This document shows, in pieces, positions 2,429 through 46,167 of a DNA stretch of 64,000 nt. Below the pieces are notes generated by a model. That model ran no database searches and had not been told where the DNA came from. It saw only the letters and a program-made list of their open reading frames with translations. This DNA is from Rhodococcus qingshengii JCM 15477 (GTDB lineage: Bacteria > Actinomycetota > Actinomycetes > Mycobacteriales > Mycobacteriaceae), in the NCBI RefSeq assembly GCF_023221595.1, contig NZ_CP096563.1, positions 6,195,001-6,259,000 on the forward strand, given 5' to 3'. Made by a program: the position numbers and the translations under genes. Within the stretch, counting starts at the first letter, position 1. Each line of letters opens with the position of its first letter.

Positions 2429-3973
2429 TTGAAGTCTGCCGAGGAGATCATGGAAATCCTGGATGCCTACGACCTGACAGGGTCGTTGCGTGATGCCGGC
2501 GAGCTGGCCGGATGCTCGCACCACACGGTCAAGCACTACGTGGACCGCCGTGCTGCCGGGGGTGAGCTGGACAAGGCCGTGACTCGGCCGCAGTTGATCG
2601 ATGAGTACCTGCCCAAGGTCGAGGAGTGGGTCGAGCGGTCCAAGGGCAAGGTCCGTGCCGACAGAGCGCACGAGAAGCTGCTCGCGATGGGCTACAAGGG
2701 TTCGGAGCGCACCACCCGTCGTGCGGTCGCATCGGTGAAGAAGTCATACCGGTCAGGACATGTGCGGGTCCACCGGCCCTGGGTCACCGAGCCGGGGATG
2801 TGGCTGCAGTACGACTACGGCGACGGACCTGTCGTCGACGGCGTCAAGACGGTTCTGTTCGTGGCGTGGCTGGCGTGGTCGCGGTTCCGGGTCGTGATCG
2901 CGCTGCGCGATAAGACCATGCCGTCCGTGTTCGCCGCGCTGGACCAGACCTTCCGCCGGTTGGGTGGGGTGCCGACCTACGTGCTGACCGACAACGAGAA
3001 GACCGTCACGACCGAGCACATCGCCGGGATCCCGGTCCGCAACGGACAGCTCGTCACCTTCGCCGAGCACTACTCGGTCGTGGTCCACACCTGTGTGCCG
3101 GCGGATCCGGCGTCCAAGGGCGGCACCGAGTCGTCGGTGAAGATCAGCAAGGCCGACCTGGTGCCCAAGGACACCAACCTGCGTGAGGAGTACGCGTCGT
3201 TTAGCGAGCTCGAGGAGGCGTGTGAGGCGTTCTGTCAGAAGGTCAACACCCGGGCTCACCGGACCACGAAGCGGCCACCGGTCGAGATGTTGGCCGAAGA
3301 GCGGACACGGCTACACCCGGTCCCGACACAGCCGCACACAGTCGCGTTCGGCACCACCCGGGTAGTGCCGGGCAACACGCCGATGGTGATGTTCGAGTCC
3401 GGCCAGTACTCGGTGCCACACACCCTGCTCGGCGCCACGGTGTGGGTTCGTGCCCAAGGACTCGGCGACGGCGAGGAGGTCGTCATCGTTCACGTCGGCG
3501 AGGACGGACCCGCCGAGGTCGCCCGCCACGCGCGCGCGACGCCGGGCACGCCGAGGATCAACGACGAGCACTTCCCACCGCAGCCGGAAGGTCCGTTGAA
3601 CCGGCAGCCGCGAGCGAAGAACCCAGCGGAAGCCGAGTTCCTCGACCTGGGCGAGGGCGCCCGCCTGTGGCTGGTCGAGGCCGCTGCGGCGGGCACGCCG
3701 CGGATGAGGGTCAAGATGGCCGAAGCCCTCAGCCTGGCCAAGCTGTTCGACCCCGTCGAGGTCGACTGGGCACTCGGCCACGCCGCCGTCCACGGCCGGT
3801 TCGCCGAGGCCGATCTGTCCTCGATCCTCGACCACCACGCCCGGCAACCCGCTGTTGGCGAGCACCGTGCCGGCGAAGAACGGTCGCTGACCCAGGGCAC
3901 CGCCGGATGGGCACGTCTCGGCCAGCACGACAGCCAGCACGACAGCCGCGAGGGGAACGAGGTGACCCGATGA
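2429..3973 (+). CDS. istA: IS21-family transposase IstA
   Basis: This 514-residue transposase starts at a TTG preceded by a strong GAGGAGGG ribosome site; no better in-frame ATG is close. An N-terminal helix-turn-helix (about residues 12-40) is followed by an rve-type integrase core. The DDE residues are visible as the Asp in Gln-Tyr-Asp-Tyr-Gly-Asp-Gly, the Asp in Val-Leu-Thr-Asp-Asn-Glu-Lys, and the Glu in Lys-Gly-Gly-Thr-Glu-Ser. The C-terminal half is the usual IstA beta-barrel and tail. It cuts and joins the element ends together with the IstB ATPase, with which it overlaps by 4 bp (ATGA). Confidence 0.93.
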   Translation: MKSAEEIMEILDAYDLTGSLRDAGELAGCSHHTVKHYVDRRAAGGELDKAVTRPQLIDEYLPKVEEWVERSKGKVRADRAHEKLLAMGYKGSERTTRRAVASVKKSYRSGHVRVHRPWVTEPGMWLQYDYGDGPVVDGVKTVLFVAWLAWSRFRVVIALRDKTMPSVFAALDQTFRRLGGVPTYVLTDNEKTVTTEHIAGIPVRNGQLVTFAEHYSVVVHTCVPADPASKGGTESSVKISKADLVPKDTNLREEYASFSELEEACEAFCQKVNTRAHRTTKRPPVEMLAEERTRLHPVPTQPHTVAFGTTRVVPGNTPMVMFESGQYSVPHTLLGATVWVRAQGLGDGEEVVIVHVGEDGPAEVARHARATPGTPRINDEHFPPQPEGPLNRQPRAKNPAEAEFLDLGEGARLWLVEAAAAGTPRMRVKMAEALSLAKLFDPVEVDWALGHAAVHGRFAEADLSSILDHHARQPAVGEHRAGEERSLTQGTAGWARLGQHDSQHDSREGNEVTR

Positions 3974-4764
3974 CGACCAAGACCACCACACCATCGATGG
4001 CGTCCGCGCCGCCGTTGCCGGCCGAGTTGGAGGACCTCTTGCGGCGGCTTCGGCTGCCCCACATCCGTCGCCACGCACCGGAGGTCGTCGCGACCGCGAA
4101 GGCCCAACGCTGGGAGCCCGCCGAGGTGCTCAAGGCTCTGTTCGCCGAGGAGGTCGCCGGAAGGGAACGCTCCGCACTGGCCACCCGCAGGGCGGCTGCG
4201 GGGTTCCCGACCGGGAAGACGTTCGATGCGTGGCAGCCCGAGGCATCCTCGATCCCGGCACCGACCCAGCAGGCACTCCGCACCCTGGAATGGGTCCACC
4301 GTCGGGAAAACCTCGTCGTGTGCGGGCCGTCGGGGACCGGGAAGACGTTCCTACTGGAGGCACTCGGTCACCAAGCCGTCGAGGCCGGGTTGAAGGTCGC
4401 CTGGTTCACCCTGGAAGACCTCGGGGTCCTGCTGCGCCGCCATCGTGCCGACGACACGGTGTCCAAGGCCATCGCCCGTGTGCTGCGCGCCGATCTCGTT
4501 GTCGTCGACGACATCGGCCTGTTGCCGGTCGCCCAGGATGCCGCCGAGGGGCTCTACCGGCTCGTCGACGCCGCCTACGAGAAGCGGTCGGTCGCGATCA
4601 GCTCGAACCTGCACCCGTCCGGGTTCGACGAGCTGATGCCCAAGACGCTGGCGACCGCCACCGTCGACCGGCTACTGCACCACGCCCACGTGTGCCAGAC
4701 CAGCGGAGACTCCGTGCGACTTACCCAGGCACTCGCCGGCCGAGGGGTGAGTCCCTTGAGCTGA
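3970..4764 (+). CDS. istB: IS21-family ATPase helper IstB
   Basis: This 264-residue protein is an AAA+ ATPase of the DnaC/IstB family. It has a Walker A motif (Gly-Pro-Ser-Gly-Thr-Gly-Lys-Thr, about residues 118-125), a Walker B motif (Val-Val-Val-Asp-Asp-Ile-Gly), and a later sensor region containing Ser-Ser-Asn. The ATG overlaps the istA stop, which suggests translational coupling. IstB assembles on target DNA and directs IstA to the insertion site. Its length is normal and there is no frameshift. Confidence 0.93.
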   Translation: MTTKTTTPSMASAPPLPAELEDLLRRLRLPHIRRHAPEVVATAKAQRWEPAEVLKALFAEEVAGRERSALATRRAAAGFPTGKTFDAWQPEASSIPAPTQQALRTLEWVHRRENLVVCGPSGTGKTFLLEALGHQAVEAGLKVAWFTLEDLGVLLRRHRADDTVSKAIARVLRADLVVVDDIGLLPVAQDAAEGLYRLVDAAYEKRSVAISSNLHPSGFDELMPKTLATATVDRLLHHAHVCQTSGDSVRLTQALAGRGVSPLS

Positions 4765-43334: not shown

Positions 43335-44276
43335 ATGACCGTTCGCGTCGGATACTTCCCACACAACAATTCGCTGTTCGTACTGCGCCACACCGGAATC
43401 CTCGAACGCCGTCTCCCCGATGTCGAGTGGGTGGACCTGCGTGAGCTTCCCGCCAAGCCTGCAGTGAACCCGGAAAACGCCTTGCCGACCCTGCACTCGG
43501 ACTGGCTGTTCGAGGAGGGCGGATACGACGTGATCGGAACCGGATTCACGCCGCCCGTCACCGGATTGGCCCAGGGCCGCGATCTCGTCTACATCGGAAT
43601 CTCCGGCCCCCGCGTGGAGAACGGGCGCCTGGTAGTCAAGGCAGAGTCCGAGATCAACACGGTTGAGGACCTGCGTGGCAAGCGCGTCGGCATCGCGCAC
43701 GGATCGTGGCAGACCACACTTCTGTTGTTCGCCTTGGATCAGGCGGGGCTGACCTGGTCCGACATCGTCCCTGTCGACACCGACGTACGCGGTGGTGGAG
43801 CGGACCTCGTCGACGGCACCATCGATGCCTGGGTTGGCGCGTACCCGGGGCTGACGGACATCGAAGCGAACCACGAACTGCGCACGCTGATCGCCACCGA
43901 CGGACTCTTCAGCCACCCCTCACTGTGGTTCACCCGGCGCGATTTCGCGGATACCAACCCGGAGGCCCTCCAGGCGATCATCGAGGCCCTGCAGGAATCC
44001 GACGCCTGGATCGAAGCCAACCCCCGCGAAGCCGCCCAGGTCTTCGTCGACGACGTCGAGAAGCGTGGCGGGTCCGCGAGCCTCGATGCCTGGGAAGCTG
44101 CACTGCGCGGACGTCCTTTCGGTGTCAACCCTGTCACCGACGAGTTCCTGGACGAGCAGCAGCGCGCGGCCGATCTCCTGCTGAGCAACGGACTACTGCC
44201 GAAAGCGGTCACCGTCCGCGAAGCAGTCGTGCCGTGGATCAGCGAGTTCGTCGGTTCGGATCGTTCGTCGATCTGA
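43335..44276 (+). CDS. Cytosolic SsuA/DszB-fold protein lacking signal peptide
   Basis: 313 residues. It starts directly with Met-Thr-Val-Arg-Val-Gly-Tyr-Phe-Pro and has no signal or lipobox. The body is an NMT1/SsuA-type binding fold (Leu-Arg-Gly-Lys-Arg-Val-Gly-Ile-Ala-His-Gly-Ser-Trp and Val-Asp-Gly-Thr-Ile-Asp-Ala-Trp-Val-Gly). It lacks the Cys of DszB at the equivalent place (Phe-Pro-His-Asn-Asn). It could be a divergent enzyme, a ligand sensor, or a binding protein that has lost export. It is the last gene of the organosulfur operon, 41 bp after the aldolase gene. Confidence 0.75.
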   Translation: MTVRVGYFPHNNSLFVLRHTGILERRLPDVEWVDLRELPAKPAVNPENALPTLHSDWLFEEGGYDVIGTGFTPPVTGLAQGRDLVYIGISGPRVENGRLVVKAESEINTVEDLRGKRVGIAHGSWQTTLLLFALDQAGLTWSDIVPVDTDVRGGGADLVDGTIDAWVGAYPGLTDIEANHELRTLIATDGLFSHPSLWFTRRDFADTNPEALQAIIEALQESDAWIEANPREAAQVFVDDVEKRGGSASLDAWEAALRGRPFGVNPVTDEFLDEQQRAADLLLSNGLLPKAVTVREAVVPWISEFVGSDRSSI

Positions 44277-44298: not shown

Positions 44299-44339
44299 CT
44301 TCACACGTGACAGATACCGAACGGTCTGCCATTGTGAAG
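44299..44339 (+). terminator. Imperfect hairpin between the sulfur operon and the RT locus
   Basis: CTTCACA pairs with TGTGAAG around an inner CAGA-TA-CC/GG-TCTG hairpin. It may end the sulfur operon, or belong to the promoter of the RT locus. The motif TGACAGAT is also repeated directly at 44288 and 44308. No U tract is present. Confidence 0.4.
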
Positions 44340-44341
44340 GA

Positions 44342-44502
44342 ATGCGGCGGCGCGTGGGTGAGAGTTGGTCCACGCGACCAGTCTCAGGGGTAACCCCTGG
44401 GTCGGCCAGAAGAATTGGATACTGCGTCCACCGGCGTTCGGCACGCTCCGCGTGCTTGCCGCCGCACCGGACAAAGGATTTGGTCACCCCGCCCCGTCGC
44501 AT
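44342..44502 (+). ncRNA. Candidate retron msr-msd non-coding RNA
   Basis: Hand folding of the RT leader gives a nested structure. A closing stem pairs 44342-44361 with 44484-44502: 18 pairs in blocks of 9, 3 and 6, with one C-C mismatch, one bulged U and one G-U. Inside are hairpin 1 (44362-44385: GAG-TGGTC-CACGC-GACCA-CTC core), hairpin 2 (44385-44399: CAGGGG-TAA-CCCCTG), a 26-nt linker, and a long hairpin 3 (44426-44472: GTCC, CGGCG and GGCACGC arms, TCC loop, about 17 pairs). Flanking complementary repeats, short msr hairpins, one long msd hairpin, and an RT start 15 nt downstream are the retron plan. The priming G cannot be identified; the G residues at 44360-44364 just after the closing stem are candidates. 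Confidence 0.6.
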
Positions 44503-44516
44503 CCCGGAGTCGAATC

Positions 44517-45767
44517 ATGCGTGACTTCGAGCTCGATCCCGAGTTGGCGCGTCGTCTGGCCGTTGCGGCCGCTGACGCTCCGTGGACCCTCAGCGGCCTC
44601 GAGGAGGCATTCGGAACCGTCTTCGGCGTTTCCCCGACGCTCCTGGCCGTGCGCGTTCTCGACCTCATGCCCGCTCCACCGTTCGAACCGCAGACTCTGT
44701 ATCGATTGCTTCGCGAACTACCTCGCCTGCGGCCTGTTCCTCTCTCACTGGACACCAATGAAACCTCGGTGTGGCGGTTCGACGTTCCCCGCTACAACAC
44801 CAGTGTGGACCTGGCTCGTTCACTGGATCTGACGATCTCCGAACTCGAGTGGTTCGCCGACCGAGGGGAATGGCTCCGCACGAAACCCCGACCGCTACGC
44901 CACTACCGGCCGATGCAGATCAGCAAGAAGGCCGGCGCTCGCCTCCTCGAGGTACCGAAACCCCGATTGCGCGAAATTCAGCGGAAGATCCTGCGCCGCA
45001 TCCTAGACCTGGTGCCCCCGCACGACGCGGCACACGGATTTGTCCGTGGTCGAAGCCCTCTGACTTTTGCAGCGCCGCACGCACAGTCGGAAATCGTGAT
45101 CGGCGCGGACCTCGCGCAGTTCTTCCCTTCGATCAGCGGCAGCCGCGTTCATGCCGTCTTCGCCGCCCTCGGCTATCCACCCGCAGTGGCAGGCGTTCTC
45201 ACCGGATTGTGCACTGTTGCAACACCTGCCGATACCCTGCGCGGCCTACCGTATGCACAGGCATCACAGCTACGCACCGCGCATCTTCCGCAAGGCGCAC
45301 CCACTTCTCCTGCACTGGCGAATCTCGTCGCACGCAAACTCGACATCCGCTTGAGTGGACTCGCACAAGCGAACTGGCTCACCTACACCCGATACGCCGA
45401 CGACCTCGCGTTCTCCGGAATCGAAGTAGCCGACGTCGGCACCCTCCTCTGGACGGTCGAGCAGATCGCCAGAGACGAAGGGTTTGCCATCCATCCACGA
45501 AAGACCAAGGTGATGCGCCCTCATCGACGCCAACACCTCACCGGGCTGGTGATCAACGACCAACCCTCGTATCCGCGCGACGACTACGATCGCTTGCGCG
45601 CCCTGCTGCACAATGCCGCCAATACCTCGGCGCAGGAACAGAATCGGGACGGTATCGAGAACTTCCGCGCCCACATCTACGGCCGGATCGCGCACATCGG
45701 CGAAACCAGCACGACACGCCGACGCACATTGTTGCGCCTGGCTGAACGTGTGGATTGGGACGGTTAG
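44517..45767 (+). CDS. Retron-type reverse transcriptase
   Basis: 416 residues from ATG 44517, preceded by GGAG. RT motifs in order: Lys-Pro-Arg-Leu-Arg-Glu-Ile-Gln-Arg-Lys-Ile-Leu (149-160), His-Gly-Phe-Val-Arg-Gly-Arg-Ser (173-180), motif A Ala-Asp-Leu-Ala-Gln-Phe-Phe-Pro-Ser-Ile with Asp198, Leu-Pro-Gln-Gly-Ala-Pro-Thr-Ser-Pro (257-265), and the catalytic Tyr-Ala-Asp-Asp (293-296). Retron marks are Phe-Ala-Ala-Pro-His at 184-188, in place of Asn-Ala-x-x-His, and Leu-Thr-Gly at 341-343, in place of Val-Thr-Gly. There is no maturase or HNH domain, so it is not a group II intron. Residues 1-100 are an extra N-terminal region of unknown role. No effector gene follows; the next gene is convergent. 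Confidence 0.88.
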   Translation: MRDFELDPELARRLAVAAADAPWTLSGLEEAFGTVFGVSPTLLAVRVLDLMPAPPFEPQTLYRLLRELPRLRPVPLSLDTNETSVWRFDVPRYNTSVDLARSLDLTISELEWFADRGEWLRTKPRPLRHYRPMQISKKAGARLLEVPKPRLREIQRKILRRILDLVPPHDAAHGFVRGRSPLTFAAPHAQSEIVIGADLAQFFPSISGSRVHAVFAALGYPPAVAGVLTGLCTVATPADTLRGLPYAQASQLRTAHLPQGAPTSPALANLVARKLDIRLSGLAQANWLTYTRYADDLAFSGIEVADVGTLLWTVEQIARDEGFAIHPRKTKVMRPHRRQHLTGLVINDQPSYPRDDYDRLRALLHNAANTSAQEQNRDGIENFRAHIYGRIAHIGETSTTRRRTLLRLAERVDWDG

Positions 45768-45780
45768 TGCCCGCGAGCAG

Positions 45781-46167
45781 TCAGACCCGCGGGGTGTAGG
45801 CCATGCATTCGACCTCCATGTGCGCACCCAGTGCCAGTCCGTCTGTTCCGAACGCACTGCGGGCCGGCAGTCTCGACGCCGGGAAGTACTCGAGGTAGAC
45901 CTTGTTGAACTCCTGCCAACGAGACATGTCGTCAAGCATGACAGTACATTTGAAGATTGCTTCGACGCCGGAACCGTAAGCGATCAACGAAGCCACGATG
46001 TTCTCCATGGTCTGACGAGCCTGCGCTTCGAAGCCGTCGGCCAAAGTCCCGTCCGGGAGCATGCCGATCTGACCCGACAGATACAGAACGTCTCCGACGC
46101 GCACTCCGGTGGAGAACGGCGTATCGAAAGCGGGTGGGATGAACTCGACGGTCTGAGATGAATCCAT
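45781..46167 (-). CDS. RidA/YjgF-family protein
   Basis: 128 residues. Val-Gly-Asp-Val-Leu-Tyr-Leu-Ser-Gly-Gln-Ile-Gly, Ala-Arg-Gln-Thr-Met-Glu-Asn-Ile and the Pro-Ala-Arg-Ser-Ala-Phe-Gly segment with the key Arg are present, as is the late Val-Glu-Cys-Met-Ala-Tyr. RidA proteins hydrolyse reactive enamines or imines; RutC-like members act in pyrimidine breakdown. It lies in a minus-strand set with an alpha/beta hydrolase and an IclR regulator, suggesting breakdown of a nitrogen compound imported by the divergent ABC system. Confidence 0.9.
   Translation of the reverse strand: MDSSQTVEFIPPAFDTPFSTGVRVGDVLYLSGQIGMLPDGTLADGFEAQARQTMENIVASLIAYGSGVEAIFKCTVMLDDMSRWQEFNKVYLEYFPASRLPARSAFGTDGLALGAHMEVECMAYTPRV

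Follow-up and report, generated by a model that had tools for sequence, protein, structure and literature searches.

Does the reverse transcriptase (RT) gene on a 64,000-nt stretch of Rhodococcus qingshengii JCM 15477 (contig NZ_CP096563.1, positions 6,195,001 to 6,259,000; this whole stretch is hereafter called the window) belong to a retron and, if so, what might such a retron do? A preliminary description of this DNA had proposed an unannotated retron, with the RT preceded by an msr-msd-like RNA. We consider it probable (about 0.85) that the locus is a solo retron, in which one transcript comprises the RNA elements a1-msr-msd-a2 and the RT, and from which RNA-linked DNA is predicted to be made. 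On the best reading, it belongs to a solo retron family that is mostly vertically inherited and has a four-helix N-terminal domain.

A retron-type reverse transcriptase

The RT gene and its immediate surroundings comprise the following features.

44517..45767, + strand: retron-type RT of 416 amino acids (aa), from the ATG at 44517 to the stop at 45767, identified by profile, sequence and structure matches
44506..44509, + strand: Shine-Dalgarno-like GGAG in the sequence upstream of the RT ATG
44517..44762, + strand: N-terminal extension of the RT with four helices, spanning about residues 1-82, from AlphaFold2 models

The RT had been called retron-like from its motifs, and profile, sequence and structure comparisons all place it closest to retron RTs. 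Its PADLOC scores were 585 bits for RT_other (PDLC02949), 551 bits for RT_outgroup [retron] (PDLC03740) and 329 bits for RT_XIII (PDLC02956), retron profiles overall giving 156 to 585 bits; structural ranks 1-14 were all held by retron RTs, and the YADD motif lies at residues 293-296 (45393-45404). PDLC02949 and PDLC03740 match the protein over nearly its full length, N-terminal extension included, and as models of the RT only they bring no type, RNA or effector; PADLOC calls the protein retron-like without a type. A different kind of bacterial RT, group II-derived or a DRT, that merely follows an unrelated structured leader would account for weak scores with the profiles of group II (48.7 bits), Drt2 (30.2 bits) and Drt3a (22.2 bits), but the retron profile scores and structural ranks, together with an RNA of retron type, leave this explanation a negligible probability.

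A Pfam scan of the RT found no domain besides RVT_1. When modelled alone, the N-terminal extension was predicted to form four helices with a mean pLDDT (predicted local distance difference test) of 74.8, and residues 1-80 are conserved at 1.8 bits per column compared with about 3 in the core. Searches gave no clear match for this extension; its homologues occur across phyla. Two protein alignments were used, one of 92 hand-picked RTs (A2) and one of 54 RT N-termini (A3), the latter without close duplicates and without three pieces of broken RTs.

A leader RNA in retron order

The leader in front of the RT contains the following elements.

44342..44361, + strand: a1, 5' arm of the closing stem in the fold; its inner six pairs and the whole arms co-vary
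44484..44502, + strand: a2, 3' arm of the closing stem in the fold, co-varying as a1
44362, + strand: probable branching (priming) guanosine, an invariant G after the YGA that ends a1, with a role suggested by branch motifs given in PMC6868368
44366..44380, + strand: msr hairpin 1 (helix 2), of a length that varies between genera; 4 of 5 pairs with double changes
44383..44401, + strand: msr hairpin 2 (helix 3), CUCAGGGG-YAA-CCCCUGGG; 100% paired, 4 of 8 pairs with double changes
44422..44429, + strand: conserved unpaired CUGCGUCC element, with CGTC invariant in 66/66 leaders; probably the msr/msd overlap and the 3' end of the multicopy single-stranded DNA (msDNA)
44432..44464, + strand: conserved core of the msd hairpin (helices 4 and 5), with its tip at 44441-44455 and the loop TCC at 44447-44449

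The closing stem, the two short hairpins and the long hairpin, all of which had earlier been folded by hand, recur in the minimum free energy fold of 44335-44516 (-83.8 kcal/mol, z -2.44). The preliminary description had judged such complementarity unlikely by chance; folding alone yields a modest excess, 3 of 200 shuffles being equally good, and the stronger support comes from the covariation described below. Between the end of a2 (44502) and the RT start codon lie 14 nt. In the script-found leaders, a1 ends with YGA followed by G and a G precedes a2, these two being the invariant G27 and G148 of the alignment columns; among the branch motifs that PMC6868368 gives for known retrons are TAGC, CAGA, CAGC, GAGC and ACGC. 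Hairpins resembling msr hairpin 2 are found in many leaders from other phyla. Three leaders (L101, L103 and L104) measure 155 nt from the branch G to a2, compared with 122 nt in close relatives, and the extra 33 nt are apparently inserted between the two msr hairpins. An Rfam search returned no match for the leader RNA, and in this respect the retron was indeed unannotated, whereas proteins such as its RT already bear the NCBI name 'reverse transcriptase family protein'.

Compensatory changes in the leader

The structure of the leader RNA is maintained by compensatory changes. Alignment A1 comprises 66 of the 71 distinct leaders that a script found at homologous RT loci, omitting the three longer leaders mentioned above as well as L078 and L079, whose RT is broken. 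Its RNAalifold consensus has 30 pairs in five helices, and these are 98.2% paired, compared with 87.4% in shuffles and 36-47% when the partners are slid by 1-3 columns. Double-sided changes occur in 18 of the 30 pairs, as good a result being reached in 0/500 shuffles, and double-change cells number 188 against 42.4 in the shuffles (0/500), although these counts lean favourable, given that related rows went into them and that the same alignment supplied the structure. For the preliminary description, a lack of compensatory changes in the closing stem or the long third hairpin would have spoken against a retron; such changes are present in four of the six counted closing-stem pairs and in 6 of 11 msd-hairpin pairs. 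The co-varying inner six pairs of the closing stem join 44356-44361 with 44484-44489. The outer part of the stem gives -26.4 kcal/mol with cognate arms vs. -18.7 kcal/mol with exchanged ones (420 of 4192 exchanges as good), and for the whole a1/a2 arms, 159 of 4150 between-locus exchanges pair as well as the cognate combination. The long hairpin had originally been drawn at 44426-44472: its core is conserved, but its outer GUCC/GGAC pairing is absent from the consensus structure.

The script found no acceptable leader at 70 loci with a strong RT match, mostly from other phyla, and at 23 host-family loci without a script-found leader the RNA model did find one. Twenty-two leaders outside the training of the covariance model, in an alignment fitted to that model, were 95.2% paired with double changes in 17 pairs (0/500 shuffles).

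Predicted transcript and product

44307..44335, + strand: probable promoter seen in the sequence, with GTGACA at 44307-44312, a 17-nt spacer and an extended -10 element TGC-CATTGT at 44327-44335; a start is expected near 44342
44408..44482, - strand: approximate msDNA copy by analogy with known retrons, with its 5' end opposite 44482 and an uncertain 3' end at about 44405-44425

By the mechanism that we propose, one transcript would start about at a1, run through a1-msr-msd-a2 and continue into the RT. Pairing of a1 with a2 and binding of the msr hairpins by the RT would allow priming from the 2'-OH of G44362, with copying predicted to begin at G44482 and to end near 44405-44425. The product would be a branched RNA-DNA molecule with roughly 58-78 nt of DNA, including a hairpin capped by a GNA triloop. 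The pattern TGNYANNNT lies 35-37 nt upstream of the branch G at 54 of 68 loci and is missing from 14 (expected 0.018 per locus), a count to be read in the knowledge that the pattern was picked after the alignment was viewed and that the rows are related; a generic sigma-70 scan found no promoter. As DNA, the stretch 44408-44482 folds at -15 kcal/mol (z -1.09; 31/200 shuffles as good).

The loop at the tip of the msd hairpin is TNC in 66/66 leaders, within GC-TNC-GC in 65, and the middle base can be any of the four; in the further leader set, TNC is present in all 21 rows that keep the msd, with the closing C-G pair not kept in six. The tip accordingly encodes a GNA triloop in DNA in 87/87 host-family leaders that keep the msd. 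PMC4686876 credits GNA mini-hairpins that have two or more G-C pairs with resistance to nucleases and extraordinary stability (Tm 78 C for GCGAAGC), properties that may explain why the tip is conserved. The leader might instead be a cis-regulatory RNA that is never reverse-transcribed, e.g., one that the RT binds to regulate its own expression, for structured leaders can be regulatory and a2 is close to the RT start. Against this stand the retron order, the closing stem and the conserved priming-type G, the retention of YADD and the retron fold by the RT, and a TNC loop whose free middle base fits a GNA constraint at the DNA level, so that we find a regulatory leader very unlikely.

Co-occurrence, inheritance and selection

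RNA and RT are kept together. Within the host family, the RT is present in 113 of 401 genomes (E <= 1e-30) and the RNA, as a single match each, in 114 (E <= 1e-5), which include 113/113 of the RT genomes; in the extra genome (G038, E 8.6e-6) RT pieces adjoin the RNA. The window genome has a single RT of this clade and a single RNA. In 70 of the 71 script-found leaders, a2 starts 24-168 nt upstream of the extrapolated RT start, the extrapolation failing for L184. Among distant loci, 15 of 53 have a full-length RNA match (E <= 0.01) on the RT strand that ends at or before the RT match; these 15 are from Planctomycetota, Myxococcota, Pseudomonadota and other Actinomycetota. At L016 the RNA match overlaps the first 12 nt of the RT match. 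A phylum sample had the RT (E <= 1e-60) in 4 of 396 genomes, three of them from the host family. One locus is degenerate (L208, in G288), with an RNA that lacks the msd about 10 kb from an RT remnant whose N-terminus was not found.

A quick tree was built from RTs of at least 250 aa, without duplicates, broken copies or L091; on it, a branch with an SH-aLRT support of 100 separates 86 host-family RTs from the other 34. Genus labels change 23 times on this tree, compared with a minimum of 20 and a shuffled mean of 84, a result helped by near-copies and genus-rich sampling; the labels are NCBI genus names or codes, one genus may form two groups, and L005, a Rhodococcus, is labelled Gloeocapsa. 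RT locations are genus-specific. Taken together, the genus-sorted tree and these locations fit mainly vertical inheritance of the RT with losses.

The RT is under purifying selection, with a ratio of nonsynonymous to synonymous substitution (dN/dS) of 0.06-0.09 in the window's group, in which leaders are 89-99% identical vs. 65-92% for third codon positions (six comparisons). These values bear on whether the locus is a selfish or decaying remnant without a cellular role, as could be suspected from the 288 of 401 family genomes without the retron and from an early stop in at least 4 of 93 distinct host-family loci, other loci matching only in pieces. Low dN/dS and the highly conserved leader in the window's group, a single copy per genome in the RNA search, the genus-sorted tree and the fact that no mobile gene was noted beside the RT all argue against a remnant, and we regard it as distinctly unlikely.

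The effector question

The window RT lies between two genes.

43335-44276: NMT1-like binding protein gene, upstream of the RT
45781-46167: RidA-family gene, downstream of and convergent with the RT

Well-studied retrons are seen as an RT, an RNA and a toxin, and the preliminary description had implied such a standard antiphage role. The neighbourhoods give it no support, because no effector gene common to them was found among the neighbour families of 87 host-family loci; with no common neighbour and only RVT_1 in the RT, neither a dedicated effector gene nor a fused effector domain of a tripartite defence retron was found. A conventional defence retron could still use a neighbouring gene as effector in each genus and swap it between genera. 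In line with this model, 25 of the 87 loci have a gene on the RT strand that follows the RT within about 100 nt, and at 6 of 8 g11 loci a 139-aa open reading frame without a Pfam match comes immediately after the RT (L148:5520-5936, - strand). Yet the downstream neighbours fall into 58 families, each seen at most 6 times, both window neighbours look metabolic, and as a control the same procedure did recover a common upstream gene of about 555 aa at 7 loci from three phyla whose RTs belong to another clade, where the one RT tested scores RT_XIII. We therefore consider swapped effectors unlikely.

Upstream, the most widespread neighbour is a DNA polymerase gene (16 loci, four genera; the tested copy is dnaE2-like). 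Such error-prone DnaE2-like genes lie on the RT strand at L150:2237-5521 and 15 further loci (g11, g19, g17 and g9), and a PolA gene is similarly placed at L168:2633-5377 and 4 further loci (g30, Tsukamurella). These polymerase genes may be upstream of the RT by chance. At L048, a type-XIII-like RT is preceded by two large genes without a Pfam match (L048:3414-5261 and L048:655-3612), which are found again at similar loci.

Relation to known retrons

Retron type XIII is the second-nearest profile clade, but RT_XIII is not the best match of the window RT. Two Myxococcus RTs, L200 (485 aa) and L196 (427 aa), which have the lengths of the Mx162 and Mx65 RTs, score the reverse, with RT_XIII vs. 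RT_other at 514 vs. 303 bits and 439 vs. 310 bits, respectively. The window's clade is distinct from type XIII, because these Myxococcus RTs score as that type instead; the RNA model R1 had no match above 10 bits beside either of them. Besides RTs of these two lengths, Myxococcus has a third one of retron type, and this belongs to the window's clade (L035, leader 3143-3328, RT 3370-4677; P0121 from M. xanthus). Its leader holds a similar msr hairpin, and it is possibly an unnamed retron. An extended N-terminus in myxobacterial retron RTs, too, and vertical inheritance of Mx162/Sa163 are mentioned in PMC6868368. By contrast, the match to the RT of Ec86 (Eco1) starts at model residue 82 and leaves the N-terminal extension uncovered, and Ec86, unlike the window retron, has a dedicated effector in its solved complex, according to the entry title. 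In the literature searched we found no description of the RNA or of the solo family, with which unassigned clades of the Mestre 2020 classification may overlap; in a figure legend of PMC6498646, a gene of R. ruber bears the label of a retron-type polymerase.

What the retron may do

Several observations weigh against a solo retron. Region Y, specific to retron RTs, holds a VTG triplet, whose position reads LTG in the window RT and LAG in the consensus of the 92 relatives, and the RT scores under the NCBIfam retron cut-offs. The leader fold alone is only moderately unusual, and tip loops from other phyla are not always GNA. Moreover, the retron is dispensable, since an RT match is present in only 113 of 401 genomes of the family and 17 of 28 of the genus, some broken.

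Many relatives of Rhodococcus inherit this retron without the usual killer gene, which hints at a role other than standard phage defence. According to a review (PMC8867640), there are retrons with no obvious effector in their vicinity, which may have been co-opted for other functions. We tentatively hypothesize, at somewhat less than even odds, that a particle of RT and msDNA works through a partner whose gene lies elsewhere and which docks on the N-terminal domain, and that this particle either guards against phage or stress or has a housekeeping role. More doubtful is a narrower model, in which a vertically inherited, effector-less retron would combine nuclease-resistant, GNA-tipped msDNA with a chromosomal partner on the four-helix domain and serve genome maintenance or stress sensing rather than a self-contained toxin system.

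With a single copy per sampled genome, no common effector, and RNA and protein kept together, this family offers a clean test case, in soil bacteria that are easy to grow. In its conserved GNA tip, an extraordinarily stable DNA mini-hairpin would have found a natural application; for DNA delivery in such hosts, a retron from actinobacteria might be of use.
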